NCBI GenBank assembly: GCA_016222805.1
Contig: JACRQG010000030.1
Coordinates: 67,101-131,100, forward strand
DNA: 64,000 nucleotides
Source: Verrucomicrobiota bacterium
Lineage (GTDB): Bacteria > Verrucomicrobiota > Verrucomicrobiia > Opitutales > Opitutaceae
Direction of reading: 5' to 3'
Made by a program: the position numbers and the translations under genes
The notes under the pieces: model-generated
The model's input: only the letters and a program-made list of their open reading frames with translations
Told to the model about the DNA's origin: nothing
Database searches by the model: none
Part shown: positions 2,791 to 40,359 of the stretch, piece by piece
Position numbering within the stretch: the first letter of the stretch is position 1
Layout of the letters: each line of letters starts with the position of its first letter

Positions 2791-4251
2791 CTAAACCGCG
2801 ACGAAGTTGTACGGCGCCCGATGGGAACCGCGGGCCAGCGCGCGGGCCCGGGCGAGAGTGGAAGCATCGGCACCGGAGACGGCGCGGATCGTCTCGCCGC
2901 TCGGATCGAGTTCCAGCCAGGGCCCGAGGACGAAACGCGCTTTGGCGGACTCCAGATCGTTGGCGACAAGGTGACGTTCGAATTGCTCCAGGGCCGCTGC
3001 GGCGCCCGGGTGGTTCCGCACGGCGTCCCGGCAGGCCGCGGCGGACTCCGGCCGGCCCAGCCGCCAGGAGAGGTTGCCGATGTGGCAGAGGACCGCCGAG
3101 TAGTGACCCTGCAGCACCGGGGCGTTGAGGTCTTCGGCGCGACGCGAACGGACCGCACGCAGGAAATTGAGCATGTGCCGACTCCCGCCTTCACCGGGGA
3201 ACTGCTTCAGCCGCTTGCCGTCGCGATCGTAGATCCAGCCACCGCCTTTCAAGCCGACGAAGGAGCCTCCTTCGCAATCGAGGGCGAAGCCCTCCCGGAT
3301 GCCGCGGAACTGGTCCATGGCCTTCTGGCCGGCTTTGGCGGGAAGATTGCGATTCTCGACGAGCATCGGCAGCCCGGGATAATCGAGCAGCGTGAGTTGC
3401 GTGTTGGGTGTCTCGCCGGCGTCGTCGACCCCGAAGCGGCCGCCGAGGCACAGCGCGCGGCGGGGCAAATCCGTAAGCCCGGCCATCATCCGGCAGGCAT
3501 CGATCGGGTGCACGCCACTGTTGCCGAGATCGCCGTCCCCGGTCGACCAGACCCAGTGCCAGTCGTAATGCAGCTTGGGCCGGGTGAGGGGTTCCGCGGC
3601 CGCCGGGCCACAGTAGAGGTCGTAGTCGAGCGTGGTGGGGCGGTGCGGCGCGGCGCGGCCGATGCCAGGGCGGTATTCGTACCAGGCCACATGGGCGAAT
3701 TTCGGTTTTCCGATGTGGCCCTCCTTGATCCACGCCGCCGCGGCGCGGATGCCCTCGTCGGAACGATACTGGGTCCCCGATTGCACGATGCGGCCGGTCT
3801 GACGGGTAATCGCAACCATCTGCGCCCCCTCCCACATTTGATGGGAGATGGGCTTTTCCACATAGACATCTTTGCCGGCCCGGCAGGCCCAGATGGTCAG
3901 CAGGGCATGCCAGTGGTTGGGGGTCGCGATGATGACGGCGTCGACATCCGGACGCTCCAGGATCCGGCGCGGATCCGTGGCGGTAAACGGCTGGAGGCCG
4001 GCCTCCCGGGCAACGGCCACCTGGGCCGACAGGCGCTCGGGGTCCACATCACAGAGGGCGGTGAGGCGTGCCTCGGGGAGACCGAGCACCTGCTTGACGT
4101 GACTCTTGCCCTTGCCGCCCAGGCCGATCACGGCGAGGCGGACGGCTTCGTTGGCGCTGCCCGCGGCGGCGGCGAGCGAGCGGCGGACGGAGGGAAAGGC
4201 GAGCGTCGCAGCGGCGCTCGTGGTGCGGAGGAAGGAGCGGCGGGTGGTCAT
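2791..4251 (-). CDS. Tat-exported Gfo/Idh/MocA family oxidoreductase
   Basis: A 486-residue NAD(P)-type sugar oxidoreductase. A twin-arginine signal (TTRRSFLRTTSAAATLAFP) opens the protein. The Rossmann motif G-L-G-G-K-G spans residues 43-48. The family's EKP motif is at 132-134, and a GVHPIDACRMM segment lies in the C-terminal substrate domain. Tat export means it would fold with its nucleotide in the cytoplasm and act in the periplasm, as known for glucose-fructose oxidoreductase. Substrate is unknown; by context it is a sugar or sugar acid released from the polysaccharide. It follows the FG-GAP protein gene after a 208-base purine-rich spacer. Confidence 0.92.
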   Translation of the reverse strand: MTTRRSFLRTTSAAATLAFPSVRRSLAAAAGSANEAVRLAVIGLGGKGKSHVKQVLGLPEARLTALCDVDPERLSAQVAVAREAGLQPFTATDPRRILERPDVDAVIIATPNHWHALLTIWACRAGKDVYVEKPISHQMWEGAQMVAITRQTGRIVQSGTQYRSDEGIRAAAAWIKEGHIGKPKFAHVAWYEYRPGIGRAAPHRPTTLDYDLYCGPAAAEPLTRPKLHYDWHWVWSTGDGDLGNSGVHPIDACRMMAGLTDLPRRALCLGGRFGVDDAGETPNTQLTLLDYPGLPMLVENRNLPAKAGQKAMDQFRGIREGFALDCEGGSFVGLKGGGWIYDRDGKRLKQFPGEGGSRHMLNFLRAVRSRRAEDLNAPVLQGHYSAVLCHIGNLSWRLGRPESAAACRDAVRNHPGAAAALEQFERHLVANDLESAKARFVLGPWLELDPSGETIRAVSGADASTLARARALARGSHRAPYNFVAV

Positions 4252-4254
4252 GAG

Positions 4255-4455
4255 AAGGGCGGAAGACGGAAAACTCGGAAAACGGGGAAGACGTGGGAGA
4301 GAGGAAGACGCGGAAGACGTGGAAGAGAGGGAGACGGAGAAAGGAGGAAGACTGGGGAAACGCGGAAGACGTGGGAAAGAGGAAGACGGGGGAGGACAGG
4401 AAAACCTTGGCAGAGGGGGAAACGGGAGAAAGCAGGGAGGCTGGAAAAACGGGGG
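4255..4455. repeat. Purine-rich low-complexity tract with GGAAGACG words
   Basis: About 200 bases almost free of pyrimidines on the plus strand, built from imperfect repeats such as GGAAGACGTGGGAGAGA and GGAAGACGCGGAAGACGT. The transcript of the downstream oxidoreductase gene (minus strand) would therefore carry a C/U-rich leader. A shorter tract of the same style lies at 13480-13560. Confidence 0.75.
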
Positions 4456-4459
4456 TGGG

Positions 4460-6526
4460 TCAGTTCCAGCCGGGGAGGGAGACGTTGGCTTGGTAGTTGG
4501 ATTGGTTGTACAGGGGGTTCCGTTTCGGGCGATAGAGCTTCCCGGACTTGGGGTTGTCGGCCTGGGTGTAGATCCACATCTCGTGGGCGTCCCATACGAC
4601 GATTTCGTCGCGGCAGTCGCCGGTGAGATCGAGCACGGTGTAGGTCATTTCGGGATGACCGTCGGCCGGGAAGCGCAGGACCCGTCGGCCCCAGCCATCG
4701 TAGACGCCCTCGTCGACATTCGGCGAAAGCACCCAGAACTCCTCGCTCCGCCCGGTCCAGTTCAGCGGCATCATCATGCTGCCGTGCTGGGACGGCTCGC
4801 AGTCGTGGTACACCTTCATCCGGGAGTCGAAGAAGTGCACGATGCCCTGATTGGCGTGAAAATTGATCGTCACGGTTTCGAGCCCGGGCAGGTCGTCGCG
4901 GAAGTTGGCGAGGGTCGGGCTTTGCACGTGGCCCAGGTGCAGGTGGCGGAGAATTTTGCCCTGCAGGTCGGTCCAGAAGACGCCCTCGTCGCTGGCGGCA
5001 TTGAAAAGGGTCGGGCGCGGATCGTCCGGATGCAGGCGGACGATGGCGACGGCATCCGCGTGGTCCTTGATCTGGTCGTCGAGCGACCAGAGCTTGCGAC
5101 CGTCGTGATCGAACAGGCTGTAACCGATCGCGAACTCATCCTTGCCGTCGCCGTCGATGTCGGCGGCGTAGCCGAAGTGGCCCGTGTTGCACGAGGCCGT
5201 CCAGAGCAACTCAAGGCGATCGTTGTAGGCCCAGAGCGTGCTGTAGCGGTCCTTGAGGATTAGGTCTCCAGGATAACCCTGGCCACGCAGGTCGAGGAAG
5301 TAGATTGAATCCCCGAGGATGCGCGGGAACTTGTTGTGCGGGTCGTTCTTCTTGGTCGGCTTGGGCGAGGCCGGCGTGGGGATCTTGCGTTTGACGGCGC
5401 CGGTGAGGCCGTCGGCGACCACGAGCTCCTGATCGCGACAGTAGATGACCTCGGCCTTGCCGTCGCGATCGAGGTCATGGACCTGGAATGCGACATCGCT
5501 GGTCAGGCGGTCGCGCCACAGGTCGGGCTCGCCGGACTGCCACAGCCGCTTGCCGTCGAGGGTGAGCGCGGTGAGGCAGCCGACCTCGGAGTTGCGGTCC
5601 TTGGGGCCGTGGTTCTTCACCTGGGCGATCACGATCTCGAGACGCCCGTCACCATCGAGGTCGCCGAAGCGCACGTTGCGCCCGGTGCCGAAGCCCTCGG
5701 TCGGGATCTTTTTCCAGACGACCATCTGCGGGTTGGCGGCCTGCAGGCGCGCCTCGGTGTCCTCGCGATCCCGGATGGCCACCTCGGTTCGGCGGCGGGC
5801 CTCCGGGCGCATCGTGACCCGTACGTCGAGAAAACGGGTGGGCACATCGGCGAGCAAACCGATGCGCCCCTGGAGAAAGGTCGCATCTTCGGCGGCGAGG
5901 GAGGCGCCGTTGGAGAGGCGGGCTTGGATCTTGGGCCCGGCGACTTCCACCGTGGCGGTGAGCTCCTCGCCAACCTGCCAGGTGCAGGCCTGCCGGGCGA
6001 GGGTGGTAACGGTGGATTTCCGGTAGCCGGTGCCATGGTTCAGCAGGAGCAGCTGGGCTTCGCTGCCGTTCACGCCAAAGAAGTAAAGGCAGCGGTCATT
6101 GCGGTAGCGAAAGATCACACCGCTCCCGTTGTCGCGGGATTCAGGCGCGAAGCGTACCGTCAGTGTATAGTCACCCCAAAGGGGATCACCGGCGATGAGC
6201 ATCGGGTGAGTGTAGGACGACTCCTCCTTGGTCGACGTGCTGGCCTGGTAGACGAACTTGCGGCCGAATCCGCCCTCGCGCAGGACGCGCCAGGCGCGTT
6301 GGGAGGCCTCGCTGCGGAAGCAGGAGATCTCCCAGTTCCCCTGGCGACCGGTCTTGGGGACGTAGTGGTATTCGGCTTCGGCGCCGACGACTCCAGCGGA
6401 GAGCATCTCCACCTTGAGGGCGGAGAAGTCGTCGTGAAAGACGGTCTCCGGTGCGGATGCGGATTTCAGGAGCGGCGTCGACGCCGCCAGCAAGACCAAG
6501 CAGGGGAAGAGGGGAGGCGGAGTCAT
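4460..6526 (-). CDS. Secreted FG-GAP/VCBS-type beta-propeller protein with N-terminal lectin-like domain
   Basis: A 688-residue protein with a signal peptide ending near residue 24. Residues about 30-250 look like a concanavalin/DUF1080-type beta-sandwich (FHDDFS at the start, then WGDYTLTVRF and GVIFRYRND). From about 280 to the end there are at least four calcium-binding-like propeller loops: DLDGDGRLE, DLDRDGKAE, DIDGDGKDE and DLTGDCRDE. The C-terminus (WDAHEMWIYTQ followed by YRPKRNPLYNQ) recalls the end of PL11 rhamnogalacturonan lyases, so a lyase role is possible but not shown. Its position between a sulfatase and an oxidoreductase supports a polysaccharide-related role. Confidence 0.75.
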   Translation of the reverse strand: MTPPPLFPCLVLLAASTPLLKSASAPETVFHDDFSALKVEMLSAGVVGAEAEYHYVPKTGRQGNWEISCFRSEASQRAWRVLREGGFGRKFVYQASTSTKEESSYTHPMLIAGDPLWGDYTLTVRFAPESRDNGSGVIFRYRNDRCLYFFGVNGSEAQLLLLNHGTGYRKSTVTTLARQACTWQVGEELTATVEVAGPKIQARLSNGASLAAEDATFLQGRIGLLADVPTRFLDVRVTMRPEARRRTEVAIRDREDTEARLQAANPQMVVWKKIPTEGFGTGRNVRFGDLDGDGRLEIVIAQVKNHGPKDRNSEVGCLTALTLDGKRLWQSGEPDLWRDRLTSDVAFQVHDLDRDGKAEVIYCRDQELVVADGLTGAVKRKIPTPASPKPTKKNDPHNKFPRILGDSIYFLDLRGQGYPGDLILKDRYSTLWAYNDRLELLWTASCNTGHFGYAADIDGDGKDEFAIGYSLFDHDGRKLWSLDDQIKDHADAVAIVRLHPDDPRPTLFNAASDEGVFWTDLQGKILRHLHLGHVQSPTLANFRDDLPGLETVTINFHANQGIVHFFDSRMKVYHDCEPSQHGSMMMPLNWTGRSEEFWVLSPNVDEGVYDGWGRRVLRFPADGHPEMTYTVLDLTGDCRDEIVVWDAHEMWIYTQADNPKSGKLYRPKRNPLYNQSNYQANVSLPGWN

Positions 6527-6607: not shown

Positions 6608-8050
6608 TTAGCGGCGTTCTTTCTTCTTCTTGGTCGGCGCGGCGGTCATGGGCCAATGCTCGCTCTCCGTGCGGGCGGAACGGAAAAGCTCCGTGGCCCG
6701 GGCAACAAAGGCCGGTTGCGCTGCCGCGAGATCGCGCGACTCGGCGGGATCGGCGCGAAGGTCGTAGACCTCGATGGAGGCATCGGGGCTGGTGCGCACG
6801 GCCTTGAGGGAGCCGACACGCACGGCCTGGCTGATCGTATTGGCATGGTGTTCCCAATAGAAGGTGCGTTCGCTGGCCGCCGGCTGGCCGAGGAGGGCGG
6901 GCACGACGCTGATGCCGTCGAGGTTCGGCGGCGCCGGAATGCTGGCGAGGGCGGCGGCGGTGGGCAGGAAATCCCAGCCGCCCCATGGGAAGTCGCTGCG
7001 CCGACCGGCCGGGACCCGTCCCGGCCAGCGAACGATCATCGGCGTGCGGACGCCGCCCTCGTACAGCGAGCCCTTGTGTCCGCGGAAGACACCGTGGCTG
7101 CCGAAAAAGTCGTAGAGGTTGGCCCGGCCCGGGGCTCCGTTGTCGGAGCAGAAAAAGACGATGGTCCGCTCGTCGAGGCTGAGCTCGCGAAGTTTGGCCA
7201 TGACGCGGCCGACCTCGCGGTCGAGGCGCGTGACCATGGCGGCAAAGGTGGCGCGCGGGGCTGCGGTGGCGTTCTTGCCTCCCTTCTCACCCGGCTTGGG
7301 CGCGGGCGGCTCCGGGAACTTGCCGAGGTACTCCGCGAGGGAATCGTCGGGCACCTCGAGGAGCGAATGCGGGATCGTGTAGGCGAGGTAGAGGAAGAAG
7401 GGCCCGGAGCGGCTGCGCTCGAGGAAGGCGAGGGCCTCCTCGGTCATCAGGTCGTTGGAGTATTGGCCGCGCCGGCCGCCCAGGTTGCCGGCGAGCGTGA
7501 TCTCCTCCTCGTTCCGCCAGATCTTCTCGGGGTAGTAGAATTCGGCGAGGTCGTTGTTGAGGTAGCCGAACCAGTGGTCGAAACCCTGGCGATTGGGGAT
7601 GCCCTCGTTGCCCGGTTCGCCGAGCCCCCACTTGCCGGCGATGGCGGTGGCATAGCCGGCGCTCTTCAGCACCTCGGCGACGGTGACGTCTTCCGCCTTA
7701 AGCGGCACGCGGGCTACTCCGGCGCGACCGTGGTTGCCACGGATGCGCGTGTGCCCGGTGTGCTGCCCGGTCATGAGCACGCTGCGGGTCGGCGAGCAGA
7801 CCGACGCGCCCGCATAATATTGATCGAAGCAAGTTCCCTCGGACGCCATGCGATCCAGATGAGGCGTGCGAATCTTCCGCTGGCCGAAGGGGCCGATGTC
7901 GCCCCAGCCGAGGTCATCGGCCATGATGAAGACGATATTGGGAGGGGAGCCGGCCGGCGCGGCGGTGCTCGCAGCGCTCAGAGCCGGCGCAGCGAGGAGC
8001 GTGCAGAGGGAGAGGAGCAGGGAGGCAGAGAAGCGGAGACGGGGGCGCAT
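6608..8050 (-). CDS. Secreted sulfatase
   Basis: A 480-residue type I sulfatase. The frame is open further upstream, but the ATG at 8050 gives a normal signal peptide (RFSASLLLSLCTLLAAPALS). Metal-binding ADDLGWGD is near residue 44, and the formylglycine site is C-S-P-T-R with Cys85. GKWGLG and CSDNGAPGR follow the family pattern. The C-terminus ends in a run of lysines and arginines (TKKKKERR), as does that of some neighbours. It starts 87 bases after the DUF6807 gene and ends 81 bases before the FG-GAP gene, consistent with one transcription unit. Confidence 0.93.
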   Translation of the reverse strand: MRPRLRFSASLLLSLCTLLAAPALSAASTAAPAGSPPNIVFIMADDLGWGDIGPFGQRKIRTPHLDRMASEGTCFDQYYAGASVCSPTRSVLMTGQHTGHTRIRGNHGRAGVARVPLKAEDVTVAEVLKSAGYATAIAGKWGLGEPGNEGIPNRQGFDHWFGYLNNDLAEFYYPEKIWRNEEEITLAGNLGGRRGQYSNDLMTEEALAFLERSRSGPFFLYLAYTIPHSLLEVPDDSLAEYLGKFPEPPAPKPGEKGGKNATAAPRATFAAMVTRLDREVGRVMAKLRELSLDERTIVFFCSDNGAPGRANLYDFFGSHGVFRGHKGSLYEGGVRTPMIVRWPGRVPAGRRSDFPWGGWDFLPTAAALASIPAPPNLDGISVVPALLGQPAASERTFYWEHHANTISQAVRVGSLKAVRTSPDASIEVYDLRADPAESRDLAAAQPAFVARATELFRSARTESEHWPMTAAPTKKKKERR

Positions 8051-8137
8051 GGGAGCTGCTGGTTTGCGGGTGAGTGCGAGGACAATTAGGGCAGACAGAC
8101 GAAACGGTGGTCCGGCGCGAAACACCCGGGGATGTGA

Positions 8138-9118
8138 TTATGGCTGGGCGGCGTACGCGCGGAAAAGTTCCGCGACCCGGGCGGTCTTTTCGTTACCGCG
8201 GTGAAAGATGAGCCGGTAACGGAGTCGCAACTCGCCGCCGGCTGGGATGACCAGATCGCCGGCGTTGGGCTGGTCCTTCAGTTTCTCGAAATCGTGTTTT
8301 CCAAAGGGATTGGCGGAAAGCAGGCCGTAGTCGCGGGCGTGCCACCAGGTGGGATGGCGGGGATTTTGCGGGTGTTCGAGGAGCGCGATGCCGATGATGC
8401 GGCCGTCTGCGAGGGGGCCACTGTAGTCGACCCACGCGGCCCGCTTGCCCCAGGCCGGAACGCCCGATTCGCCGTTTGCGTTGACCAGGCGGCCCGTGCC
8501 CGGGCGCTTGTCCTTGCCCTTGCCGTGGGTGACGCGGATGGCCTCGTTCACGCGCACGGCCATGGTGCCCTCCTCGGTGTCGCCCAGCGTGACGGCGCCG
8601 TGCGTGGCCAACAGGCGGATGTCGTAGTCGAGGAACGTGCCGTCGGACGTCCGGGAGATGCGCAGCGTGGTTTCCTCGGTGAGCAGCGGCTGGCCCTCGG
8701 CGGCGAGCCAACGGTTGCGGACGCGCAGGATCCCGGTTGGGCCGTCCCGCGTTTCGAGGATGCGCTCCAACACGATGCGGCCCGTCTTCTTGTCGGGGAG
8801 TTCCCGCCAGAGGTCGTGGCCGTTGACCAAGCCGTGGGCGAACCAGACGCCGCGGTGCCAGTCGTGGTCCGGGACCTCGGCCGGGTTTTTCTTGAACGGG
8901 TAGTCCCGGGTGTAGGCTGTCCCGTCGGCATCGAGAATCGGGTACAGGCAGGGCTTGGGCCAGCCCTGGTGGAGGTAGTCGGAAAAATGCGTGCCGCCGA
9001 TCTCGATGCGGACGCGATCGGACTGGCGCGAGAACGCCACCGTGGCCGGGGCGGCGGCGCCGCAGGTCGTCACGGCCAGGGCGACGGTGAGAAGAGCGAG
9101 GCAGGGAATTCGGGGCAT
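8138..9118 (-). CDS. Secreted DUF6807 / PmoA-like family protein
   Basis: A 326-residue protein with a signal peptide (LALLTVALAVTTCGAAAPA). The segments YLHQGWPKPCLYPI, HDWHRGVWFAHG and DYSGPLADGRIIGIA mark it as the family often labelled methane oxygenase PmoA, now DUF6807. That label is historical and there is no sign of a methane monooxygenase. Histidines in HDWHRG and in HPTWWHARDYG could form an active or metal site. These proteins commonly accompany Gfo/Idh/MocA oxidoreductases in Planctomycetes and Verrucomicrobia, as here, where the oxidoreductase gene ends 23 bases upstream. The reaction is unknown. Confidence 0.8.
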   Translation of the reverse strand: MPRIPCLALLTVALAVTTCGAAAPATVAFSRQSDRVRIEIGGTHFSDYLHQGWPKPCLYPILDADGTAYTRDYPFKKNPAEVPDHDWHRGVWFAHGLVNGHDLWRELPDKKTGRIVLERILETRDGPTGILRVRNRWLAAEGQPLLTEETTLRISRTSDGTFLDYDIRLLATHGAVTLGDTEEGTMAVRVNEAIRVTHGKGKDKRPGTGRLVNANGESGVPAWGKRAAWVDYSGPLADGRIIGIALLEHPQNPRHPTWWHARDYGLLSANPFGKHDFEKLKDQPNAGDLVIPAGGELRLRYRLIFHRGNEKTARVAELFRAYAAQP

Positions 9119-9141: not shown

Positions 9142-10179
9142 TCAGGTCATGCCACTAGCGCGCAGGACGATTTCGGCGGTGAGCAGTTCGCCCTCGAGGG
9201 AAACCTGGAGGGTCCGTTCGCCGCGCACGGCCGCGGCGAGTTCGAGGAAGTCGCCGACGTAGCGGCGGTAGGCGGGGTAGGTGAATTCCTGTGCGCCCTT
9301 GCGATGGGGGCCGGCGGCCTCCGCGAGATCGAGGACGAGCTTTCCGGGTTCGATCGGCGCCAGGGTGGCGGTGCCCTTGGTGCCAAGGACCTCGAAGGAT
9401 CGGGGCGGGGTGGCTCCGCCCTGGAGGGCCGTGTTGAAGATCACGGCTCGCGTGCGTTCGTATTCCAGAACGGCGACGTTGTTGTCGCGCAGGGAGTCCT
9501 CGAAACGCCCATGTCGCCCCAGGAAGGGAATCACGTTCTTGGGTCGCCCGAGCAGGCGCACGGTGGCGTCGATCAGGTGGGAACCGAGTTCATACATCGA
9601 TCCCCCGGCAAACTCGGCCCACTCCGGGCGGCGGGCAGGGGCCAGGAGGTTGCTGATGTGGCCGCGCACCAAAAAGACCTCGCCGAGCCAGCCGGCCCGG
9701 ACGGCCTCGAAGATCGCCTGGAATCCCGGATGGTAGCGCCACATGTAGCCGGACTGCAGCAGGAGGCCTTTTTCCCGGGCCAGGGCGACCAGGGCCTGGG
9801 CGTCGCCGAGCTTCGCTGCGCCGGGCTTTTCCAGGTGCACGTGTTTGCCGGCGCGCAAGGCGCGCAGGCCTAGGGACGTTTGATCACGGACATCCGACTC
9901 CACGGCGATCACCCGGGCGCGGGAGAAGAGCTCGTCCTCCGATACCAGGCGGGCACCGAGTCGCTCGGCGGTCTTCTGGCCGGCGGGTGAAGGATCGCAG
10001 ACCCCGACCACCTCCCAATCGGGCGAGCGCAGCGCCAACTCGAGCTTGGCTGGCGCATGGGAGTGGGTGGCACCCAGGAAGCCGAGGGGGAGGCGGCGGG
10101 TCGGGTCGGCGGCACGAAGGGCCCGAGTTCCAGCGAGGGCCACGCTGGCGGCGGAAGTGAGGAAGTGGCGGCGATGCAT
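9142..10179 (-). CDS. Tat-exported Gfo/Idh/MocA family oxidoreductase
   Basis: A 345-residue protein with a twin-arginine signal (MHRRHFLTSAASVALAG). The nucleotide-binding glycine loop is atypical, reading G-F-L-G-A-T-H-S-H near residues 33-41, while the family EKP motif is intact at 117-119. MYELGSHLIDATVRLLG is the usual C-terminal domain helix. It starts only three bases after the amidohydrolase stop codon and is followed 23 bases later by the DUF6807 gene, so the three are almost certainly co-transcribed. Substrate unknown. The altered glycine loop may mean a changed cofactor preference. Confidence 0.88.
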   Translation of the reverse strand: MHRRHFLTSAASVALAGTRALRAADPTRRLPLGFLGATHSHAPAKLELALRSPDWEVVGVCDPSPAGQKTAERLGARLVSEDELFSRARVIAVESDVRDQTSLGLRALRAGKHVHLEKPGAAKLGDAQALVALAREKGLLLQSGYMWRYHPGFQAIFEAVRAGWLGEVFLVRGHISNLLAPARRPEWAEFAGGSMYELGSHLIDATVRLLGRPKNVIPFLGRHGRFEDSLRDNNVAVLEYERTRAVIFNTALQGGATPPRSFEVLGTKGTATLAPIEPGKLVLDLAEAAGPHRKGAQEFTYPAYRRYVGDFLELAAAVRGERTLQVSLEGELLTAEIVLRASGMT

Positions 10180-16222: not shown

Positions 16223-16476
16223 GGGGAGAAACGTAGGCCAGCCTGCCCTCCAGCCGCGAGCAGCTGCTTTGTCCGGGCGTGACGGGCGCGGGATTTCGGG
16301 TCGGCGGCAAAGGGATCGAGGTTTGCAGGCGGCACGGCTGGCTTGCCGTAGTGGCCGGGCGCGGTGCGTAGGTCGTCCGCAACGCCTGGGAGGATAGACC
16401 ACCGCGGCGGGGTGGCCGATGGGACGGCGACGGCGATCCCCAGGCCGGCAACCGCGGGCAGCGACAAGGGGTTCAC
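16219..16476 (-). CDS. Possible small secreted or membrane peptide between receptor and esterase genes
   Basis: An 85-codon frame beginning with GTG at 16476, 15 bases after the TonB receptor stop, and ending in a GTGA overlap with the esterase start. The first 23 residues (NPLSLPAVAGLGIAVAVPSA) look like a weak signal peptide, followed by a proline-rich part and a basic tail. I recognise no family. Its neat fit in the gap and coupling to the next gene argue for translation; the high GC content, which produces many chance ORFs, argues against. Confidence 0.35.
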   Translation of the reverse strand: MNPLSLPAVAGLGIAVAVPSATPPRWSILPGVADDLRTAPGHYGKPAVPPANLDPFAADPKSRARHARTKQLLAAGGQAGLRFSP

Positions 16477-16491
16477 AGGCGGGGGCAGGAC

Positions 16492-19359: not shown

Positions 19360-19387
19360 GGCGGGGAGTCTCCGGTTGAAACCAGGA

Positions 19388-19408
19388 CCGCCCGGGAGGT
19401 CCGGGCGG
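19388..19408. promoter_or_regulatory. Stem-loop in the leader of the TonB receptor gene
   Basis: CCGCCCGG and CCGGGCGG form a perfect 8-base inverted repeat with a 5-base loop, about 30 bases upstream of the receptor start. It may be an attenuator or simply a GC-rich hairpin. Confidence 0.35.
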
Positions 19409-19484: not shown

Positions 19485-19495
19485 CCGGCGGCGGC

Positions 19496-30578: not shown

Positions 30579-30794
30579 GACAGGGCGGAGAAAGTTTCGG
30601 GGGCGGAAGCGGCGGGGGCGAGCCTGATTGCGCAGCGGCGCGGTGGAAGGAACGGCGAACTCGGGCGGGAGGCGTCGGCGACGTCGGCGGCGGACGCCGC
30701 GGTGGTCCGTTCGGTTCGGCCGGGCACCGCGCGACCGGCATTCGCGCGGCGCCCGAGCGCACCTTGGATTGCGTCCTCCGGCCGGCTGGGTTGA

Positions 30795-32180: not shown

Positions 32181-35069
32181 TCACCGGAAAGCGGATTCGA
32201 GGAGAACGAGCCGCCGGTCTCCGCGGATCCGGGTTTCGACGGTGGTGACCTTCGCGTCGAGCGGCACTTCGATGACCTCGGTGGCCCCCGGCGCCAATAC
32301 GGCCGACGTCTCGCGGTCGTTGGCGGAGAGGTGAACGGCCAGGGGAACGCCGGAGGGGTTGAAAACGTGATGGCGGGCGGCAGTCCTTCCGGCCGGCACC
32401 CGACACCAGAAACGGCCCCGGCCCTCTGCCGGAGCGCCGGGGGCGAGTTCCGGGGTGCCACTCCAGTCCCGGTGCACGTAGGGCCCGAACGGCCGGCGGC
32501 CGAACGGGACGTAGACGATTCCGGGCCGATTGTTCCAGCCGCCCGGACCGCCGGCGAACTGATGGCCTTCGGCGGTCACGGTGATCTCGAGGGTGTCGCG
32601 ATAGCTGCCAGTGAGGGCCGGCCGGGAGTTGAGCATCAACCCGCTGTGGATCCCCGTCAGCACACCGCGCTCCGTCTCATACTGCCCCCAGACGATCGGG
32701 GCCTCGATCAGGACGTGGCGCTCGTGCCCGGTCGGGAGCGCGGCATAGGCGACCAGGTTGCGGAGCAGGCGATCGGCCACGGGATCGCGTCCGATGCGGT
32801 CGACGAGATCAAAACCGGAGTAGAGCACCGAGCCCTGGCCGGCGAAGAACTCGGCGAGGGCGATGCCCTCGAGGCCCTGGCTGTAGTTCGCCAGCACCGC
32901 GGTATCGCGGATGGCCTCCGGGTCGCGGAGGACCAACCCGTTGGTCACCGGATGCACCCGGGGGAGGCCGGGTTTGGTCTCGTCCCAGCCGTTCGGGTCG
33001 GACCACACCTGCAGGCGCCGGCGGTCGAGGCCGACGAGGATTGGATGGTCCGGCCGCTCGGGATTGATGGCGAGGCCGTCGCGCGAGGGGCGCGCCGGCG
33101 GCGGGTAGGAGGGATCGTCGATGCTCGTGGAGGGCATCCGGATGGCGGCAGGCAGGAGTCGCTGCAGGGCCGGGGCGGATGCCGCGGGTTGCCGCAGCAC
33201 GACGAGGCGACCGCCCCGGCGAACCCAGTCCGTGAGGGCGGTCACGGTGGCGGGATCAAGGCGGTCAACAGTGTCCTCGCCCACGAAGACTGGGAGCGCG
33301 AGAGGCGGTGTTTCGCTGGCCGGCACAGGCGTCGAGCCGATGCCGAGGCGTTCCAGGGCGGCGCGCGTGCGGCCGGGGGCATCGGCCAGCGCCACGGCGA
33401 GCACGCCTGCGGAGGGCACGCCGGAGTACGCGGTGGAGGCGATGAAGACCTCGGTCTCGTTTTCCGCCACGGAGCGGTCAGGGAGGTGCAGACGACCCCA
33501 GAGACGGTACGATCCGGTCGGCAGGTGGGCGGGGATGGTTACCGCGAGCGGGCGTCGGCTCGTGCCGTAGTAGGGCACGTCGATTCCTTGCTCACGGCCG
33601 GACGCGACGGCGCGCTGCGTGGCGTCGCGGAGTTCCCATTCGAGGCGGAGGTCGCGCAGATCCGCGGCGGGATCGGCGTCATTGACCACGTGGGCGATGG
33701 GGCGCAGCTCCGCGCCGGCGTAGACCTGGGGCGTGTAAAGTTCCCAGCTCAGCAGCACCGGCTGATAGGACGTGCGCAGCTGCCGCGCGGCGGGCTTGGG
33801 ATCCATGTCGGCGAAGCTCGCGATGTCGTGCCAGCGGTTGAAGAGGATCGTGAACGGAAAGACTCCCGAGAGCTCCGGGTTATGCGGCCGCAGGCGGCGG
33901 AAGAGTTCGGTCGCCTGTCGGACGGTGAACGACTGGTGGGCGAAGCCGAGCTGTCCCAGCTCCGCGGTGGGCGCATGGCCGGTCCAGCTGAGCTGCGCGA
34001 CCGGGTTCTTGTGGTTGGGGGTGAGGTTGGTCCGGCCGTCGGGACCGAGGTAGTTACCGACGCACTCGGTGAAGGTGAGCGGTTGGACCCGGCCGGGAGC
34101 GACGAGCCGGGGATCGTCGCGCAGGTGCAGGAAGGTGAACGGACTCTGGTAATACCAGCCCCAATACCGGTGGAGATCGTTGATTTCGCCGACGCGCCCG
34201 TAGCCGTAGCCGGCGTTGGCGATGTAAAGCCGGGTCGGATCCCACGGCTGCAGTTCGCCGTGGATGGCGCCGAGGAAGCCATCCCAGCGCGCCCCGGAGG
34301 CCCCTTCGCCCGCGACCTCATTGGTGAGGGCGTAGATCACGAGGGCGGGATGGTGCGCGATCGGGTGAAACTTGGTTTCCCGGAACCAGCGGGCGGCGGC
34401 GGCGCGGTCACCGGAGGCGTTGGCGCCGTTGACGCTGCCGCCGTAGTTGCCGCCGAAGACCAGCATGCCGAGCTCGTCGCAGACGTCGTACCAGGTCTCG
34501 TCGTCGGGGATGCGGATGATGTTGACGTTCAGGCTGCGCAGGTAGCGCACGTAGTCCTCGGCAAAGGCCCGGCTGCGTTCGAGCTTCTCCGGGATGCCGC
34601 GGTTGGGCGGGTTGATCGCGAGGCCGCGGAGGAAGTACGGGCGTCCGTTCAGGCACAGACGGCCGCGTTCGGTGGTGAAGGAACGAAACCCGATCCGCTC
34701 CTCCCGGCGCTCGCGGCGACCCTGGCGCGTGGCCAGGTCGAGAGTCACCTGGTACAAGGTCGGCGTGGAAGGCTCCCAGCGGCTCACCTCCAGGCCGGTG
34801 AGCGTCAGCCGGGTCACTCCGTCCACAGGGCGGGCGGTCACCCGGGCGCGGTGGAGCGGGATTTCCTGCGCCGGTTCGCTGCCGCCGACCCGAGCCAGGC
34901 GCACGGTGCTGGATTTCCAGTCGGGCTCGTTCCCAGCGGCCAGGCGAAGGTCGAGGGTCAGCGTGTCGACCGTGGTGAAGTACCAAATCTTCTCAATCCC
35001 CTCGGCGCGGAGGAACCCGGCGAGAAGGAGGAACACGGGGAGCAGGGAGCGAAGGAACCGCGCCGGCAT
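32181..35069 (-). CDS. Secreted glycoside hydrolase family 2-like protein
   Basis: A 962-residue protein. The ATG at 35069 gives a signal peptide (RFLRSLLPVFLLLAGFL). An immunoglobulin-like domain comes first (about 25-135), without the usual N-terminal sugar-binding jelly roll. A TIM barrel follows (about 140-430) with acid/base Glu251 in ALTNEVAGEG and nucleophile Glu335 in LTFTECVGNY. Residues about 560-780 contain a glutamine-amidotransferase-like segment (TDWVRRGGRLVVL). GH2 enzymes are beta-galactosidases, beta-mannosidases, beta-glucuronidases or relatives; which one cannot be said. It is the last gene of the minus-strand sulfatase block. Confidence 0.82.
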   Translation of the reverse strand: MPARFLRSLLPVFLLLAGFLRAEGIEKIWYFTTVDTLTLDLRLAAGNEPDWKSSTVRLARVGGSEPAQEIPLHRARVTARPVDGVTRLTLTGLEVSRWEPSTPTLYQVTLDLATRQGRRERREERIGFRSFTTERGRLCLNGRPYFLRGLAINPPNRGIPEKLERSRAFAEDYVRYLRSLNVNIIRIPDDETWYDVCDELGMLVFGGNYGGSVNGANASGDRAAAARWFRETKFHPIAHHPALVIYALTNEVAGEGASGARWDGFLGAIHGELQPWDPTRLYIANAGYGYGRVGEINDLHRYWGWYYQSPFTFLHLRDDPRLVAPGRVQPLTFTECVGNYLGPDGRTNLTPNHKNPVAQLSWTGHAPTAELGQLGFAHQSFTVRQATELFRRLRPHNPELSGVFPFTILFNRWHDIASFADMDPKPAARQLRTSYQPVLLSWELYTPQVYAGAELRPIAHVVNDADPAADLRDLRLEWELRDATQRAVASGREQGIDVPYYGTSRRPLAVTIPAHLPTGSYRLWGRLHLPDRSVAENETEVFIASTAYSGVPSAGVLAVALADAPGRTRAALERLGIGSTPVPASETPPLALPVFVGEDTVDRLDPATVTALTDWVRRGGRLVVLRQPAASAPALQRLLPAAIRMPSTSIDDPSYPPPARPSRDGLAINPERPDHPILVGLDRRRLQVWSDPNGWDETKPGLPRVHPVTNGLVLRDPEAIRDTAVLANYSQGLEGIALAEFFAGQGSVLYSGFDLVDRIGRDPVADRLLRNLVAYAALPTGHERHVLIEAPIVWGQYETERGVLTGIHSGLMLNSRPALTGSYRDTLEITVTAEGHQFAGGPGGWNNRPGIVYVPFGRRPFGPYVHRDWSGTPELAPGAPAEGRGRFWCRVPAGRTAARHHVFNPSGVPLAVHLSANDRETSAVLAPGATEVIEVPLDAKVTTVETRIRGDRRLVLLESAFR

Positions 35070-35131
35070 GGTCCGGTGAGTCAACCGGCGGACGCGCGAA
35101 ATGTCGAGGAGGCCGGCGCGCGGCCGCGCCT

Positions 35132-36223
35132 TTAGCCCTGCGTGAAGCGTTTGACGTGCCTGGCGATGACCGCCATCGCTCGATCGGGATCCTGGACGTT
35201 GCGCGGATAGTAATAGTAGGCGGCGAAGTCCGGCCGCAGCGCGAGCACGGCGGGATAGTGCCGGTCCATGGCGTCGATCATCGCAGCCTGGAGGTTGTGG
35301 TTCTCGAGCAGGAAAAACCCCTTGCGGCCCGGCACCGCGCGGGCGGCCCGCAGGAACGACTCGCCCTTGCCGCTGAGCAGGATCTTGCCCTTGCCGCTCT
35401 CCTGGCCCTCGCCGCCCCCTTCCATGGTCTTGTCGGTGGCGGCATCCCACGGCCGGCCATCCGCGCCGTAATAATCGAGGTGCTGGACGCCGGCGCCGGC
35501 GGCGAGCTCGTCGGCGCCGTTGTGCGCCTGCTGAAAGAGAAAGGTGAGCTTGTCCGGCCAGCGCTGCTTGGCGAAGGCGCAGACCTTGCTCCAGAAGTCT
35601 CGCGCGGCGCCATAGTGGGCGGTGATCGGAGCGTCCTCGCCCAGGGCGGCGACGGCGGCCTTCGACTTGTCGATGATGAAACACTTGGGCTCGTCGATGA
35701 TGAAGCCGGCGAGGTGCGGGTGCTGGCGGTAGAGTTCGGCGAGGGTGTCGCAGAAGAACTTCAACGTATCCGGATGGTGGACGCTGCTGATGCCTCCGGA
35801 GACCTTGGGCATAATGGCGGTCCTGCCCTGCTTGTTCACGATCAGGGTCTGGGGGTTGAGCATCGAGAACAGGCTCGGCACCTTGGGGGCGCCGGCGGTC
35901 AGGCCGCCCCAGCGCGAAGGGACCGCGATGACCTTCATGCCCACGCGGCTCGCCTCGGCGGCGATCAGGGAGTGGTTCTCGTAGGCGGCGAAGAGATCCT
36001 GCTCCAGCACGCCGACACAGACATACTGGGTGCCGATGTCGGCCATCCACTCCATGTCCGCGCGGATGTGGCGCGGCACGTAGGTGTACATGTGGGCGTT
36101 GAGGTAGTAGGCGCCAATCGCGGTGGTCGTGCGATTGACCGGACGGATCGGCGCCGCGGCGGACGCCGCGAGCGGGGCGGCGGAGAGCGCGGTCGAGGAG
36201 CGGAGGAAGGTGCGGCGATTCAT
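35132..36223 (-). CDS. Tat-exported protein of unknown function, probable TIM-barrel hydrolase
   Basis: A 363-residue protein with a Tat signal (MNRRTFLRSSTALSAAPLAA). No known family was recognised. Several features suggest a glycoside-hydrolase-like barrel: an early strand with YYLNAHMYTYVPRHIRAD, a strand-end acid in LAGFIIDEPKCFII, and a later LLENHNLQAAMIDAMDRH. Asp and Glu in IIDEPK are candidates for catalytic acids. The central linker is rich in Gly, Glu and Lys (MEGGGEGQESGKGK). It sits between a sulfatase and the GH2 gene, 62 bases before the latter, so it likely works on the same glycan. Confidence 0.7.
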   Translation of the reverse strand: MNRRTFLRSSTALSAAPLAASAAAPIRPVNRTTTAIGAYYLNAHMYTYVPRHIRADMEWMADIGTQYVCVGVLEQDLFAAYENHSLIAAEASRVGMKVIAVPSRWGGLTAGAPKVPSLFSMLNPQTLIVNKQGRTAIMPKVSGGISSVHHPDTLKFFCDTLAELYRQHPHLAGFIIDEPKCFIIDKSKAAVAALGEDAPITAHYGAARDFWSKVCAFAKQRWPDKLTFLFQQAHNGADELAAGAGVQHLDYYGADGRPWDAATDKTMEGGGEGQESGKGKILLSGKGESFLRAARAVPGRKGFFLLENHNLQAAMIDAMDRHYPAVLALRPDFAAYYYYPRNVQDPDRAMAVIARHVKRFTQG

Positions 36224-36338: not shown

Positions 36339-37817
36339 TCATTTGGCGGAGCCCTTCTTGTCTCCGGGTTCGTCCGGGAGGCGACCGTTGTAGCCGCGGA
36401 AAATGTCGAGGGGATCCTCCATTTGGGCGCCCTGATCGCCGGACTCGACCACCCAGCGGTCCACGAGGGCGCGCAGTTCGCGGAGCCGGGCGGCGTGGGC
36501 GGGATCGGCGGCGAGGTTGCGGACCTCGTGGGGGTCGGCGCGGAGGTCGTAGAGCTCCTCAAGGGGTTTGCGCGGGGCGGCAAACGCGGCGGCTTCGGGG
36601 GTGAGTTGGCCGGCGCGGGCGAGTTCCTTGACCAGGTTCCAGGTGGGATAGGATTTCTCCTTGTACGCGTTGTACTGCAGGTACGGGATCGCCGGCAGAT
36701 AGTTCCGGATGTACTTCCAGTCGGCGGTGCGCACGGCGCGCATCCGGTCGGTGGATTCATCCATGCGGTCGCGGGCTGCAAAGACATGGGTGCGCGGCAT
36801 GGTGCCCGGGGCGAGAAAGTCGCGGCCCTGCATCGCCGGGGCGGGGCGGGCGCCCGCGAGACCGATCAAGGCGGCCGTGACGTCGATGGCGGAGACCAGC
36901 TGGTCGTCGACGGTCCCGGCCCGCCGCCGGTCGGGCCAGGCGATGATCAGCGGCACGTGGATGCCTCCATCGTAGAGAAACTGCTTGGAGCGGAAAAGGC
37001 ACTGCCCGTTGTCGCCCATGAAGACGACGATCGTGTTGCCGGCGAGGCCGTCGCGTTCGAGCCGCGCGAGGACTTCGCCGACGTAGTGATCCATCAGGGC
37101 GACCGCATCGAGGTAATTGGCGTACTCCTCGCGGGCCACGGGATGGTCCGGATAGTACGGCGGGAGCTGCACGCGAGCGGCCTCGACATGGCCGACCGGC
37201 GAGTCCTTGGACCGGGCGAGGACCCAGCCGTCGCCCTTGTGGCTTTCGTTGATCGAGATTTGGGCGAAGAACGGCTGACCGGGCGCGCGTTCTTTCCAGG
37301 AGATGCCGTCGAAGGGGCGTTCCGCGATGAAGTTGAAGTCGGTTTTTCCGGTGCCGTCGGCGCCGGTGATCTTCAATCCACTCGGCCCGGTGTTTTCCTT
37401 GCGCGCCTTCTTGCCGCCGGGGGCGGCGAGGTTGGCGGTGAAGTAGCCTGCGTCGCGGAGACAGTCGGTCAGCGTGCGGGCGCCGGCGGGGAGCGGGCGC
37501 TTGTTCCACTGCCAGGTGCGGTGGTGGTGCGCCCCGATGCTCGTCTGGTACATGCCCGTCATGATCGCGGAGCGACTGGCGGAGCAGACCGGCGCGGTGG
37601 TGAAGGCGCGGGTGTAGCGGACGCCCCGGGCCGCGAGGGCGTCGAGATGGGGCGTCTGCACGAGGGGCGCGCCATAGCAGCCGAGTTGCGGCCCGATATC
37701 CTCCGCCAGGATGAAGAGGAGGTTGGGTCGGGTGGGTTGATCCGCCGCAGGCGCGAGCATGGGCGCGGACAACAGGAGCGCGGCGAGGAGGGCCGGAAGA
37801 CGGTGAGGCAGGTGCAC
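36339..37817 (-). CDS. Secreted sulfatase (sulfamidase-like Cys motif)
   Basis: A 492-residue sulfatase. The formylglycine site is C-S-A-S-R with Cys78, a variant common in N-sulfoglucosamine-sulfohydrolase-like sulfatases, and the metal site reads AEDIGPQLG. No ATG is present before the signal peptide; GTG at 37817 is the likeliest start, with TTG two codons earlier as alternative. GDNGQCLF is the usual DNG segment. The C-terminus ends in EPGDKKGSAK. It lies 225 bases downstream of an oxidoreductase gene and 115 upstream of the Tat-exported unknown protein gene. The target sulfate group is unknown. Confidence 0.9.
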   Translation of the reverse strand: MHLPHRLPALLAALLLSAPMLAPAADQPTRPNLLFILAEDIGPQLGCYGAPLVQTPHLDALAARGVRYTRAFTTAPVCSASRSAIMTGMYQTSIGAHHHRTWQWNKRPLPAGARTLTDCLRDAGYFTANLAAPGGKKARKENTGPSGLKITGADGTGKTDFNFIAERPFDGISWKERAPGQPFFAQISINESHKGDGWVLARSKDSPVGHVEAARVQLPPYYPDHPVAREEYANYLDAVALMDHYVGEVLARLERDGLAGNTIVVFMGDNGQCLFRSKQFLYDGGIHVPLIIAWPDRRRAGTVDDQLVSAIDVTAALIGLAGARPAPAMQGRDFLAPGTMPRTHVFAARDRMDESTDRMRAVRTADWKYIRNYLPAIPYLQYNAYKEKSYPTWNLVKELARAGQLTPEAAAFAAPRKPLEELYDLRADPHEVRNLAADPAHAARLRELRALVDRWVVESGDQGAQMEDPLDIFRGYNGRLPDEPGDKKGSAK

Positions 37818-38042
37818 AGGCAAGGGGAAAGGCGGGGTAAGGGTTACGACAAGGGAGCGGCCGGGGCAACCGGTGGCTCCATTCCGAGCGTTCGGTCCGA
37901 TGGCCTTGGTCGGCCCGGTGGCGCCGGGGTCGGTGCCGCGAGCGGAGGTGCCCCCATGCTGTTGTTCGAGGGTGGCATGCCGGCGGCGAAGGTCGCGGAG
38001 CCGCCGGCCGCGCTCCAGGGCAGGGCCGGCGGGCGGATTGGA

Positions 38043-39380
38043 TCAGAGCGTCCAGCCCTTGCGGTATTCGCGTTTCAGGAACGGATCAGCAGCGGAGGTG
38101 TTCTTCACGCGCATCCGGGCGGCGTCCCATTCAAGTTTCCGGCCGGCCCGGAAGGCGACGTTGCCGAGGTGGTTGGACTCCGTCAGCCAGCCGGAGTATT
38201 CGAAATCGGCGAGGACCTTCCCGCGGCCCTTGACGGCGTCGAGCCACTCCTGGTGGTGGCTGACAGCCTTGGGGAAGACCGGCGCCGGGCGCTGGTAGCC
38301 GGCGAAGTCCTTTTCCGGCAGGAGCACATGCTTGCCGTAGTCGGAAAGGAGCATGCCCTTCTTGCCAATGAAGAGGCAGGCGCTGCCCCACTGGGGGATG
38401 CCCTGCTGCTTCCAAATTTCGGGCCGATCCTCGCCCTGGTACCACGTCATCTTCACCGGCGGCAGCGAGCCGCGGGCCCCAAACTCGTACACCGCGCGCA
38501 TCGTCGCCGGGGCGATCTCCGGGTGGGGAGGAGGTCCGAAGGCCTCGATGGTGAGCGGCGCCTTAAGTTGCAGGGCCCAGAAGGGAAGATCGTTCCAGTG
38601 GGAGCCCAAATCGCTCATCGTGCCGTTGCCGAAGTCCCACCAGCGATACCACTTGGGCCCGGGGAAGTAGGCTTCGTTGAACGGGCGTTCCGGCGCGGGG
38701 CCGAGCCACAGATCCCAGTGCAGCCCCTCGGGCACGGGTTGTCCGGACGGACGCTCGGTGATGTAGATGCGATCCTTGTTCGCCTCGGCGGCCTCCTTGC
38801 TCTGCAGGCCCCAGGCGCGGGAAACCCAGACATGCACCTCGTGCACGGGACCGATCGCGCCGCCCTGGACCAGTTCGACCACGCGCCGGTAGTTGTCGGT
38901 CGCGTGGATCTGGATGCCCATCTGCGTCACCACCCCGGCGGCGGCCGCGGCTTCGCGGACCTTGCGCGCCTCGTAGACATTATGGGTGAGGGGCTTTTCG
39001 CAGTAGACGTGTTTCTTGTGCTTTAGCGCCAGCATTGTGGCGATCGCGTGCGTATGTTCGCAGGTGCTGACGACGACGGCGTCGAAGTCGCCCGGGCGAT
39101 CGAAGAGCTTGCGGAAGTCGACCTCGCGGCGGGCCTTCGGATAGGCGGCGACGGCGGGCGCCAGGCTCTTTTCGTTCACGTCGCACAGCGCCACGATGTT
39201 CTCGGAGGCGACACCCTTGAGATTGCTGCCGCCGCGTCCACCCGTGCCGATGATGGCGAGGTTGAGTTTGCTGTTCAGGTTCTGCCCGCGCAGGAAGGCG
39301 GGCGCGGAGAAGACGGCGGCGGTGGCGAGGGAGCGTCGGGCGAATTGGCGCCGGGTGAGAGCAGGGTGGCTGGAGTTCAT
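38043..39380 (-). CDS. Tat-exported Gfo/Idh/MocA family oxidoreductase
   Basis: A 445-residue enzyme. The Tat signal has two RR pairs ([20 protein letters not shown]). The Rossmann motif G-T-G-G-R-G-G covers residues 45-51, and EKP is at 128-130. Many aromatic residues ([22 protein letters not shown]) mark the Bacteroidetes/Planctomycetes subgroup that dominates polysaccharide loci. Relatives oxidise sugars at a ring carbon using bound NAD(P). The ATG at 39380 was chosen because the upstream extension is not protein-like. It follows the sugar isomerase-like gene by 133 bases, which carry a palindromic repeat. Confidence 0.92.
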
Positions 39381-39441
39381 GGGGTCGCTGGAAGGGTTGG
39401 GTTTCGGGACGATATGTCGGGCGAAGGTGATGTCGGCGGTG

Positions 39442-39466
39442 GTAGCCGGGGTCGGTGACCCCGGCG
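39442..39466. repeat. GC-rich palindromic repeat, copy 7
   Basis: GTAGCCGGGGTCGGTGACCC followed by CGGC, a near-perfect hairpin of the GTAGCCG subtype also seen at 32003-32080. Confidence 0.6.
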
Positions 39467-39513
39467 AAAGCGGAAAGCGTCTGCGGTCGCGGGGAGGCGC
39501 GGGCCAAACTCGT

Positions 39514-40359
39514 TCACAGATCGAGGACGCGATCCATGCGCCTGGCGATGTCGGTGAGGGCGGGCCAGTCGCCGCCGCGCACCTCGGCGGCCGCCCAGCC
39601 GGTGAAGCCGATCTTCGCCAGTTCGGCGCGCACGGCGGGCCAGTTGATATCGCCGTCGCCAATCGGCACGTCGAAACCCTTTTGCAGCCCCGTCTGCATC
39701 GCCTGCTTGTTGCTCCACTCCTTGATGTCGAGTTTCTGCGACCGTTTGCCCAGCACCTGGGCCCAATGTTCCGCGATGCCCCAGCGCATCATGTTTCCCA
39801 CGTCGAAGTGCACCTGCACCCACGGGCTTCCGATTTCGTCGATGAAGCGCGCCATGTCGAACGGGCTGATGAGGAAGGTGGCCCAGACGTTTTCCACCAG
39901 CAGCTTGATGCGCTGCTTCTCGGCGTGGGGCGCGGCGGCCTTGAGCTGGTCGCGGCAACGGTTCCAGTTGTCGACCAGGGACTGCTTCTGGTCGTAGCGG
40001 GCCACCACCAGCATCGAATCGGCGCCCAGTTTCTTGGTGAGGTCGATGCCGGGTTCGAGGTTCTCTGTCCGGGCTCCAACGGTACCGTCGATGAGGAGGC
40101 CGCTGTCCCGGCTGGCGGCGATCCAGGCGTCGGGTTCGGTGACGTGGGAGAGGCTGGGCTCGACCCCGTCGAAACCGCAGGCGCGGAGCTGGCGGAAGGC
40201 CTCGACCAGCGGCACGCTCTTGGCGCCGGTGACCATGCCCCACTTGAGCGACTTGCGGATCTTGCCGGTGAACTGGCCGGCGCGCGCGCCGGGGGCGGTG
40301 GCGAGAACGGCCGCCCCGAGGGCGGCGCCGGAGCGGTGGAGGAAGGTACGGCGATTCAT
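39514..40359 (-). CDS. Tat-exported sugar phosphate isomerase/epimerase-like TIM barrel
   Basis: A 281-residue protein of the xylose-isomerase-like TIM-barrel superfamily. The Tat signal is [20 protein letters not shown]. Metal ligands are suggested by Glu in [10 protein letters not shown], Asp in [12 protein letters not shown] and Glu in the final [12 protein letters not shown]. Export makes an ordinary intracellular sugar-phosphate role unlikely; related proteins near Gfo/Idh/MocA enzymes are candidates for keto-sugar epimerases or lyases. It begins 61 bases after a sulfatase stop and precedes an oxidoreductase gene. The pairing of the two exported enzymes is the main functional clue. Confidence 0.87.

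Follow-up and report, generated by a model that had tools for sequence, protein, structure and literature searches.

A Verrucomicrobiota gene cluster of predicted exported enzymes for the probable extracytoplasmic breakdown of a sulfated glycan

A 64-kb stretch of DNA from a Verrucomicrobiota bacterium (assembly GCA_016222805.1, contig JACRQG010000030.1, positions 67,101-131,100), referred to here as the window, encodes a cluster of predicted exported enzymes, among them several oxidoreductases, whose probable role is the degradation of a sulfated sugar polymer on the outer side of the cell membrane. A first-pass annotation of the window had grouped six proteins with signals for twin-arginine translocation (Tat) into a possible oxidative sugar pathway. 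A better unit than this six-protein set is a gene module centred on AmiH, a Tat-signal amidohydrolase; the module is conserved, uncharacterised and common to related bacteria. With its DUF6807 protein and its possibly interchangeable oxidants, it may be a more interesting result than the six-protein observation, and the redox idea for the locus is reasonable and partly supported.

A conserved gene module around AmiH

The module comprises AmiH, a HIBADH-like beta-hydroxyacid dehydrogenase, an acid-type transporter of the major facilitator superfamily (MFS), a heme protein of the Planctomycetes-Verrucomicrobia-Chlamydiae (PVC) type matching TIGR02604 and TIGR02603, and a DUF6807 protein, to which GfoB, a relative of the Gfo/Idh/MocA oxidoreductases, is added in Opitutae. 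In the window, the genes of HIBADH (12592..13479), the MFS transporter (11247..12500), AmiH (10183..11250), GfoB (9142..10179) and DUF6807 (8138..9118) follow one another on the minus strand. The AmiH and MFS genes overlap by 4 bases and a gap of 3 bases separates AmiH from GfoB, an arrangement compatible with a single transcript, as far as sequence can tell. No signal is seen on the HIBADH-like enzyme, which is presumably cytoplasmic.

The 61 AmiH loci compared include 12 from Opitutae (L051-L062) and 49 others, L088, titled Opitutus, being counted among the latter. HIBADH, MFS and heme protein are each found in 11 of the Opitutae loci, and GfoB and DUF6807 each in 10; among the 49 others, HIBADH occurs in 11, MFS in 12, the heme protein in 12, GfoB in 2 and DUF6807 in 15. 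Many of the contigs are short. With at least 5.5 kb of upstream sequence, HIBADH, MFS and heme protein are present in 10, 10 and 9 of 10 Opitutae loci, and in 7, 8 and 7 of 27 other loci, respectively. These Opitutae almost always have the module, against a minority of the remaining AmiH loci. A separate count, based on clustering of neighbouring frames, gave 22 loci with MFS, 22 with HIBADH and 21 with the heme protein. Outside Opitutae, the gene order is HIBADH-MFS-AmiH-heme-DUF6807 in L069 and L080, AmiH-HIBADH-MFS-heme in L097, and AmiH-HIBADH-MFS in L075 and L077. Such shuffling argues for a shared function over inherited order alone.

The heme protein and DUF6807 are encoded as one open frame in 9 of the 25 AmiH loci that bear DUF6807 (L063, cut by the contig end, L069, L072, L079, L080, L081, L083, L088 and L105). 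Five of these fused frames were scanned with Pfam (L069, L080, L083, L088 and L105); all contain DUF6807 and DUF7133, and all except that of L069 contain Cytochrom_C. A Pfam scan of AmiH neighbours from loci L062-L105, with no background set and with genes selected by length and GC, covered 86 of 107 selected proteins; the 21 left out by hand were mostly short or doubtful frames and included a partial heme-DUF6807 fusion (L063:11-1753). Among the 25 of 88 families listed, sulfatases (10), Gfo (7), HIBADH (6), MFS (6), DUF6807 (3) and GH106 (2) were counted. In L100 and L101 (Microlunatus, actinobacterial), AmiH lies beside frames that by eye resemble GH78 and GH29 proteins. A literature search returned no description of the AmiH module among the matches listed, which is limited evidence of novelty.

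AmiH belongs to the Amidohydro_2 family and bears a Tat signal, in agreement with the exported amidohydrolase of the first-pass annotation. By sequence, the solved structures closest to it are those of decarboxylases for 5-carboxyvanillate and gamma-resorcylate (4icm_A, E 8.8e-39, over query residues 85-354). Decarboxylases of the ACMSD type carry an HxH or ExH metal motif in the first strand. AmiH is similar to them across the barrel but lacks this motif: in place of the superfamily's usual HxH it has Q40-x-H42, which is found in all 26 aligned sequences. These sequences are 57-80% identical to AmiH and come from records titled Verrucomicrobia, Planctomycetes, Microlunatus and others, the closest being titled Opitutus, Opitutaceae or Opitutae. 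Residues H202, H252 and D318 are conserved as well. The best models for the MFS transporter are aromatic acid/H+ symport (137 bits, cut-off 419) and sialate:H+ symport (129 bits), both far below cut-off, and the presence of an acid-type MFS together with a HIBADH-type dehydrogenase in the AmiH unit suggests acid import.

The DUF6807 protein matches PF14100 with 222.2 bits, against a gathering cut-off of 27. An alignment of 24 proteins contains 25 invariant columns, ten of which are His, Arg, Asp, Glu or Tyr (R71, H85, H88, D102, R105, E183, R189, H260, R262 and Y264). Its structural model (mean predicted local distance difference test score, pLDDT, 87.1) has a galactose-mutarotase-like supersandwich fold and best matches the PL26 exo-rhamnogalacturonan lyase 5xq3_B (Z 18.6, root-mean-square deviation 3.1, 239 aligned residues). 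GalM 4bze (Z 16.9, deviation 3.7, 231 aligned) and other supersandwich enzymes are similarly close. Since many such enzymes score alike, the modelled fold suggests a carbohydrate substrate, and not which reaction is catalysed. The co-occurrence of DUF6807 with Gfo proteins, which the first-pass annotation had proposed to check, is seen in the window's own genome, where 4 of 9 DUF6807 matches lie within 3 kb of a Gfo (P 0.004; 3 of 9 within 2 kb, P 0.011; 4 of 9 within 5 kb, P 0.021). In the literature searched, the name DUF6807 occurs only as the last DUF number, in one paper.

A search of the window's own genome, an assembly of 7.9 Mb in 51 contigs that is 95.6% complete, detected no heme-protein orthologue (best match 32%, 82 bits). 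No heme protein was found near AmiH in L062 and L096 either; both loci have relatives (65% and 57%) of GfoA, a further Gfo protein of the window (2791..4251, minus strand). In a post hoc comparison of the 23 AmiH loci with MFS or HIBADH, several on short contigs and with GfoB excluded by design, a same-strand GfoA- or GfoC-type gene lies within 6 kb of AmiH in none of 16 heme-bearing loci versus 4 of 7 heme-less ones (Fisher P 0.004). As a lead only, the place of the heme protein in the module may be taken by a Gfo.

Tat signals, Gfo proteins and the second run

The six Tat signals of the first-pass annotation were recovered without loss: the frames starting at 4251 (GfoA, MTTRRSFLR), 10179 (GfoB, MHRRHFL), 11250 (AmiH, MSATRRRFL), 36223 (Orph, MNRRTFL), 39380 (GfoC, ..LTRRQFA) and 40359 (XylI, MNRRTFL) are all open, lie on the minus strand and have RRxF-type N-termini. 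TatC is encoded in the genome. The RR motif is present in all 11 same-strand GfoB relatives and in 53 of 61 AmiH loci, among which the L102 match is doubtful and some loci are truncated. Motif, uncharged stretch and conservation are the basis on which these six proteins are assigned to Tat export. The upstream regions of 110 of the 111 Gfo proteins (PF01408 matches) in the genome were read with a strict Tat-like rule, namely an RR motif plus an uncharged stretch. This rule picked out 63 of 110, whereas 50 shuffles gave 3.4 on average and 6 at most. Of the 47 regions that it passed over, 17 show an RRxF or RKxF signal by eye. By these motifs, Tat signals on Gfo proteins are a genuine pattern and normal for this organism. 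By title and abstract opening, none of the literature matches listed deals with Tat export of Gfo proteins in Verrucomicrobiota or Planctomycetota, and the term oxidoreductase is absent from the main text of PMC8857213.

Gfo/Idh/MocA proteins are recognised by a GxGxxG dinucleotide loop and an EKP motif. The window was predicted to encode three such oxidoreductases, and GfoA, GfoB and GfoC are indeed all family members by Pfam, but a reading as three ordinary ones is not supported. GfoA and GfoC have both a GxGxxG-type loop (GLGGKG and GTGGRG) and EKP, whereas GfoB retains EKP with the non-canonical loop GFLGATHSH. Ten aligned GfoB relatives, down to 35% identity, have a similar loop, and EKP except for DKP in two. 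A search for GfoB at E 1e-60, with at most 10 candidates scored per genome, retrieved it from 4 of 199 genomes, including its own.

The three proteins differ in their relation to the BT_2158 family (NF058561), to which GfoC scores 293.5, GfoA 118.1 and GfoB 16 bits, all below the curated cut-off of 750. The best solved relatives of GfoC (38043..39380) are 8tdf and 8tdh, near full length, with residues 36-428 aligning to 8tdf_A (190 bits, E 4.9e-55); we take 8tdf to belong to the BT2158 work. The suggested resemblance to the keto-sugar enzymes of gut Bacteroides is sustained for GfoC, which over its full length is distantly related to the glycoside 3-dehydrogenases of Bacteroides. The known eliminating partner of these enzymes, DUF1080 (PF06439), is absent from the window, with 38 matches elsewhere in the genome.

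GfoC-type relatives were found in 14 of 223 genomes of the order (E 1e-100, at most 7 candidates scored per genome). A sulfatase lies within 2 kb in 9 of 13 GfoC-type loci, a count that includes the own-genome paralogue L148, uses wider flanks and leaves out L121, a short contig with a sulfatase nearby. In the window's genome, a sulfatase start lies within 2.5 kb of 11 of 111 Gfo and within 4 kb of 23, by a different measure (start to start, 144 of the 152 sulfatase matches). The GfoC-sulfatase linkage looks above background, though the loci are not independent.

XylI (39514..40359) is the isomerase-like barrel of the first-pass annotation, matching the xylose-isomerase-like family PF01261 without a close model. 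None of its seven NCBIfam matches is named for the Bacteroides partner enzyme, whether or not the library, whose content was unchecked on this point, has such a model. GfoC and XylI were considered as a conserved pair, which was rejected, as they adjoin in just 1 of 13 GfoC-type loci (L144). Orph (35132..36223) had been listed among the six Tat-signal proteins. No Pfam or NCBIfam match was obtained for it, and relatives were found in 3 of 223 genomes of the order, including its own; the other two, about 30% identical, share D177-E178 and E307. Its low-confidence model (mean pLDDT 64.9) is barrel-like. Glycosidases and other glycan-related enzymes make up most of the 50 matches listed, with no Gfo-type protein among them. 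Orph is better described as glycosidase-like than as a redox enzyme, within the limits of the model quality. Sequence searches of the PDB with Orph and with DUF6807 gave no useful match.

The remaining genes of the locus, in a window of 67.7% GC, complete two tightly packed minus-strand runs. The first, from 13479 down to 786, has the order HIBADH, MFS, AmiH, GfoB, DUF6807, sulfatase (6608..8125, real start probably nearer 8050), a secreted FG-GAP/RGL11_C protein with a partial match to the C-terminal domain of rhamnogalacturonan lyase family 11 (4460..6526), GfoA and sulfatase (786..2396). The second, from 44965 down to 32181, consists of three sulfatases (43469..44965, 41866..43407 and 40421..41857, the last with an approximate start), XylI, GfoC, a sulfatase (36339..37823), Orph and a weakly matching GH2/beta-galactosidase-like protein whose start is not fixed (32181..35105). 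Between the runs lie three TonB-dependent receptors (16492..19584; 20743..24126, with a plug domain and an approximate start; 25844..28966) and a GntR/Peripla_BP_3 regulator (19496..20596). Also on the minus strand are a secreted pectate-lyase-like protein (13630..14991; PelZ model 117 bits, cut-off 840, and Pfam just under cut-off), an esterase-like protein (14999..16495; AXE1 22.4 bits) and a sulfatase (29166..30920). With seven sulfatases (PF00884 profile matches) in the window, the locus is sulfatase-rich, as had been noted for the company of the exported enzymes. Immediately upstream of the second sulfatase run, an ankyrin-repeat protein is encoded (45027-46097); at 46733-53806 lies one 2357-aa frame that by eye resembles two tandem UvrA proteins, and at 58015-58911 a 298-aa frame with the prepilin-like motif RRGFTLIELL, all on the minus strand.

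Proposed pathway and rival explanations

Redox-based glycan cleavage is a recently recognised alternative to hydrolysis. We put at slightly under even the chance that the window holds a sulfatase-rich glycan-utilisation locus in which the first run is this genome's form of a conserved oxidative module of the periplasm and the second run follows a Bacteroides-like oxidise-then-cleave scheme. The analysis itself shows the protein families, the export motifs, the linkage of the genes, their fusion in relatives and the DUF6807 fold. In the sequence of steps that we infer, substrate, acid product and cofactor state included, an exported oxidant (the Tat-exported Gfo here, the PVC-type heme-c protein in many relatives) would oxidise a sugar unit of a desulfated oligosaccharide. 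The mutarotase-like DUF6807 would act on that same sugar, AmiH would hydrolyse or decarboxylate the oxidised product to give an acid, the MFS symporter would import this acid, and the HIBADH-type enzyme would carry on in the cytoplasm. The second run, with four sulfatases, GfoC, XylI and glycosidase-like proteins, would probably oxidise and then cleave as in Bacteroides. The substrate is perhaps a rhamnose- or uronate-containing sulfated glycan. The first-pass idea of redox-based breakdown in the periplasm holds as regards the export motifs of the redox enzymes, the sulfatase-rich locus, the relationship of GfoC and the DUF6807-Gfo linkage; the GfoB loop, the glycosidase-like Orph, the absence of PF06439 and the recurrent partnership of heme protein, MFS and HIBADH do not fit it as first drawn. 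A bolder version, which we regard as distinctly unlikely, is a single periplasmic glycan-oxidation pathway of DUF6807, AmiH, acid symporter and HIBADH with two interchangeable oxidants, namely a Gfo that is exported by Tat and carries NAD(P), or else a heme-c protein of respiration. In it, DUF6807 would cleave bonds or epimerise, and AmiH, as a new amidohydrolase with a Gln motif, would work on the oxidised sugar.

Several observations weigh against the oxidative reading. The AmiH proteins of L096 and L104 start without an export signal, so that the reaction may run in the cytoplasm as well, and 38 of 61 AmiH loci, partly on short contigs, have neither MFS nor HIBADH at 50% identity, which is why AmiH may act in other contexts too. 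The GfoB loop argues against ordinary NAD(P) use, and since GfoB and the heme protein occur side by side in Opitutae, GfoB itself is no replacement for the heme protein. The heme-bearing locus L061 has an opposite-strand Tat-type Gfo (12433-13779, BT_2158_fam 129 bits) about 3.5 kb from AmiH; under relaxed rules (any strand, 20% identity, 8 kb) the alternation becomes 1 of 16 versus 4 of 7 (P 0.017), and these P values are optimistic because the loci are related. For the second run, 8 of the 9 sulfatase-linked GfoC-type loci come from one family. The density of Gfo genes in the window is not significant (3 against 0.9 expected per 64 kb, P for 3 or more 0.063). All 12 overlapping 64-kb windows with at least seven sulfatases also have at least three Gfo, and such clustering elsewhere in the genome makes proximity weak evidence for a joint pathway. 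Whole-window Gfo enrichment was rejected as pathway evidence on account of this P value and of equally dense windows being common elsewhere.

These genome-wide figures lead to the most serious of the rivals, that there is no common pathway: the window would be an ordinary sulfatase-rich locus with many Tat-exported Gfo paralogues, each acting alone, for instance as transhydrogenating enzymes of the glucose-fructose oxidoreductase type. The genome has 111 Gfo, 152 sulfatase (a few being two pieces of one gene), 38 PF06439 and 9 DUF6807 matches, a Tat-like signal on at least 63 of 110 Gfo, and at least three Gfo in 59 of 648 overlapping 64-kb windows (contigs with Gfo or sulfatase only, contig ends approximated). 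Yet independent paralogues would leave unaccounted for the linkage of HIBADH, MFS, AmiH, DUF6807 and heme protein despite gene shuffling, the heme-DUF6807 fusions and the GfoB genes of 10 of 12 Opitutae AmiH loci, and we consider this rival doubtful, though a real contender. For the second run, GfoC-XylI could closely copy the oxidation-elimination-hydration route of Bacteroides (BT2156-2160), with its DUF1080 lyase encoded elsewhere in the genome. The GfoC scores for BT_2158_fam and 8tdf point that way, as do the PF06439 matches, 8 of 38 lying within 3 kb of a Gfo (P 0.010; 5 of 38 within 2 kb, P 0.054). A close copy is nevertheless unlikely, given a GfoC score under the curated cut-off, a window without PF06439, the names of the XylI matches (library content unchecked) and the rarity of the GfoC-XylI pairing.

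The nearest structures of AmiH and the top model of its MFS neighbour raise a further alternative, in which AmiH is a decarboxylase of the ACMSD/gamma-resorcylate type, the transporter an aromatic-acid symporter, and phenolic or carboxylated side groups are what the module processes while the sugar ring stays untouched. This is very unlikely: the first metal-ligand position is the invariant Gln, the sialate:H+ model scores nearly as well for the MFS, and the neighbour families listed, most often sulfatase, Gfo, HIBADH and MFS, include no name from an aromatic pathway.

Should the module prove real, two poorly characterised families, DUF6807 and the PVC-type heme proteins, would gain a place in one pathway, and an unusual exported amidohydrolase would be defined. 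The module would also offer a route to asking how the electrons of sugar oxidation are disposed of in a periplasm that has no free NAD pool, and a marker set for tracing which glycans are attacked in this way by Verrucomicrobiota.

Comparison with known systems

Oxidative glycan breakdown by glycoside 3-dehydrogenases has reportedly been described for BT2156-2160 of Bacteroides by Nasseri and colleagues (Nature, 2024). The window resembles that system in that GfoC is a relative of the BT_2158 family and that XylI, an isomerase-like barrel, adjoins it; the window differs in that GfoC is under the equivalog cut-off, a DUF1080 lyase is absent from the window, and sulfatases are interleaved. With ACMSD-type amidohydrolases such as 5-carboxyvanillate and gamma-resorcylate decarboxylase, AmiH shares the superfamily and the conserved H202, H252 and D318, whereas its QxH in place of HxH/ExH and its export signal set it apart.

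Signals for Tat export have also been described on the periplasmic glucose-fructose oxidoreductase (GFOR) of Zymomonas and the aldose-aldose oxidoreductase (AAOR) of Caulobacter (PMC4628093). The Gfo/Idh/MocA proteins of the window likewise bear Tat signals, judged by motif, but their similarity to these enzymes is weak (about 43 bits for GfoB and about 32-33 bits for GfoC) and the GfoB loop differs. In Caulobacter, a 3-ketolactose route through LacABC and DUF1080 has been proposed in the periplasm (PMC9007349). The pathway suggested here shares with it the proposed periplasmic oxidation ahead of bond cleavage, and differs in its candidate cleaving family; no search was made for LacABC.

A parallel to the module's heme protein comes from a Verrucomicrobia cosmid, Lac161, from which a purified TIGR02604/HEAT/cytochrome c protein released glucose from lactose with a Km of 1.8 mM, and in which a PF14100 gene is encoded in the putative operon of that protein (PMC5342196). 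AmiH, MFS and HIBADH are unmentioned in the text consulted, and the search of the window's genome gave no orthologue of the heme protein. As in the AmiH module of relatives, however, a TIGR02604 heme-family protein is paired there with DUF6807, and by analogy the Lac161 operon is outside support for a heme-family protein and DUF6807 acting on glycosides.

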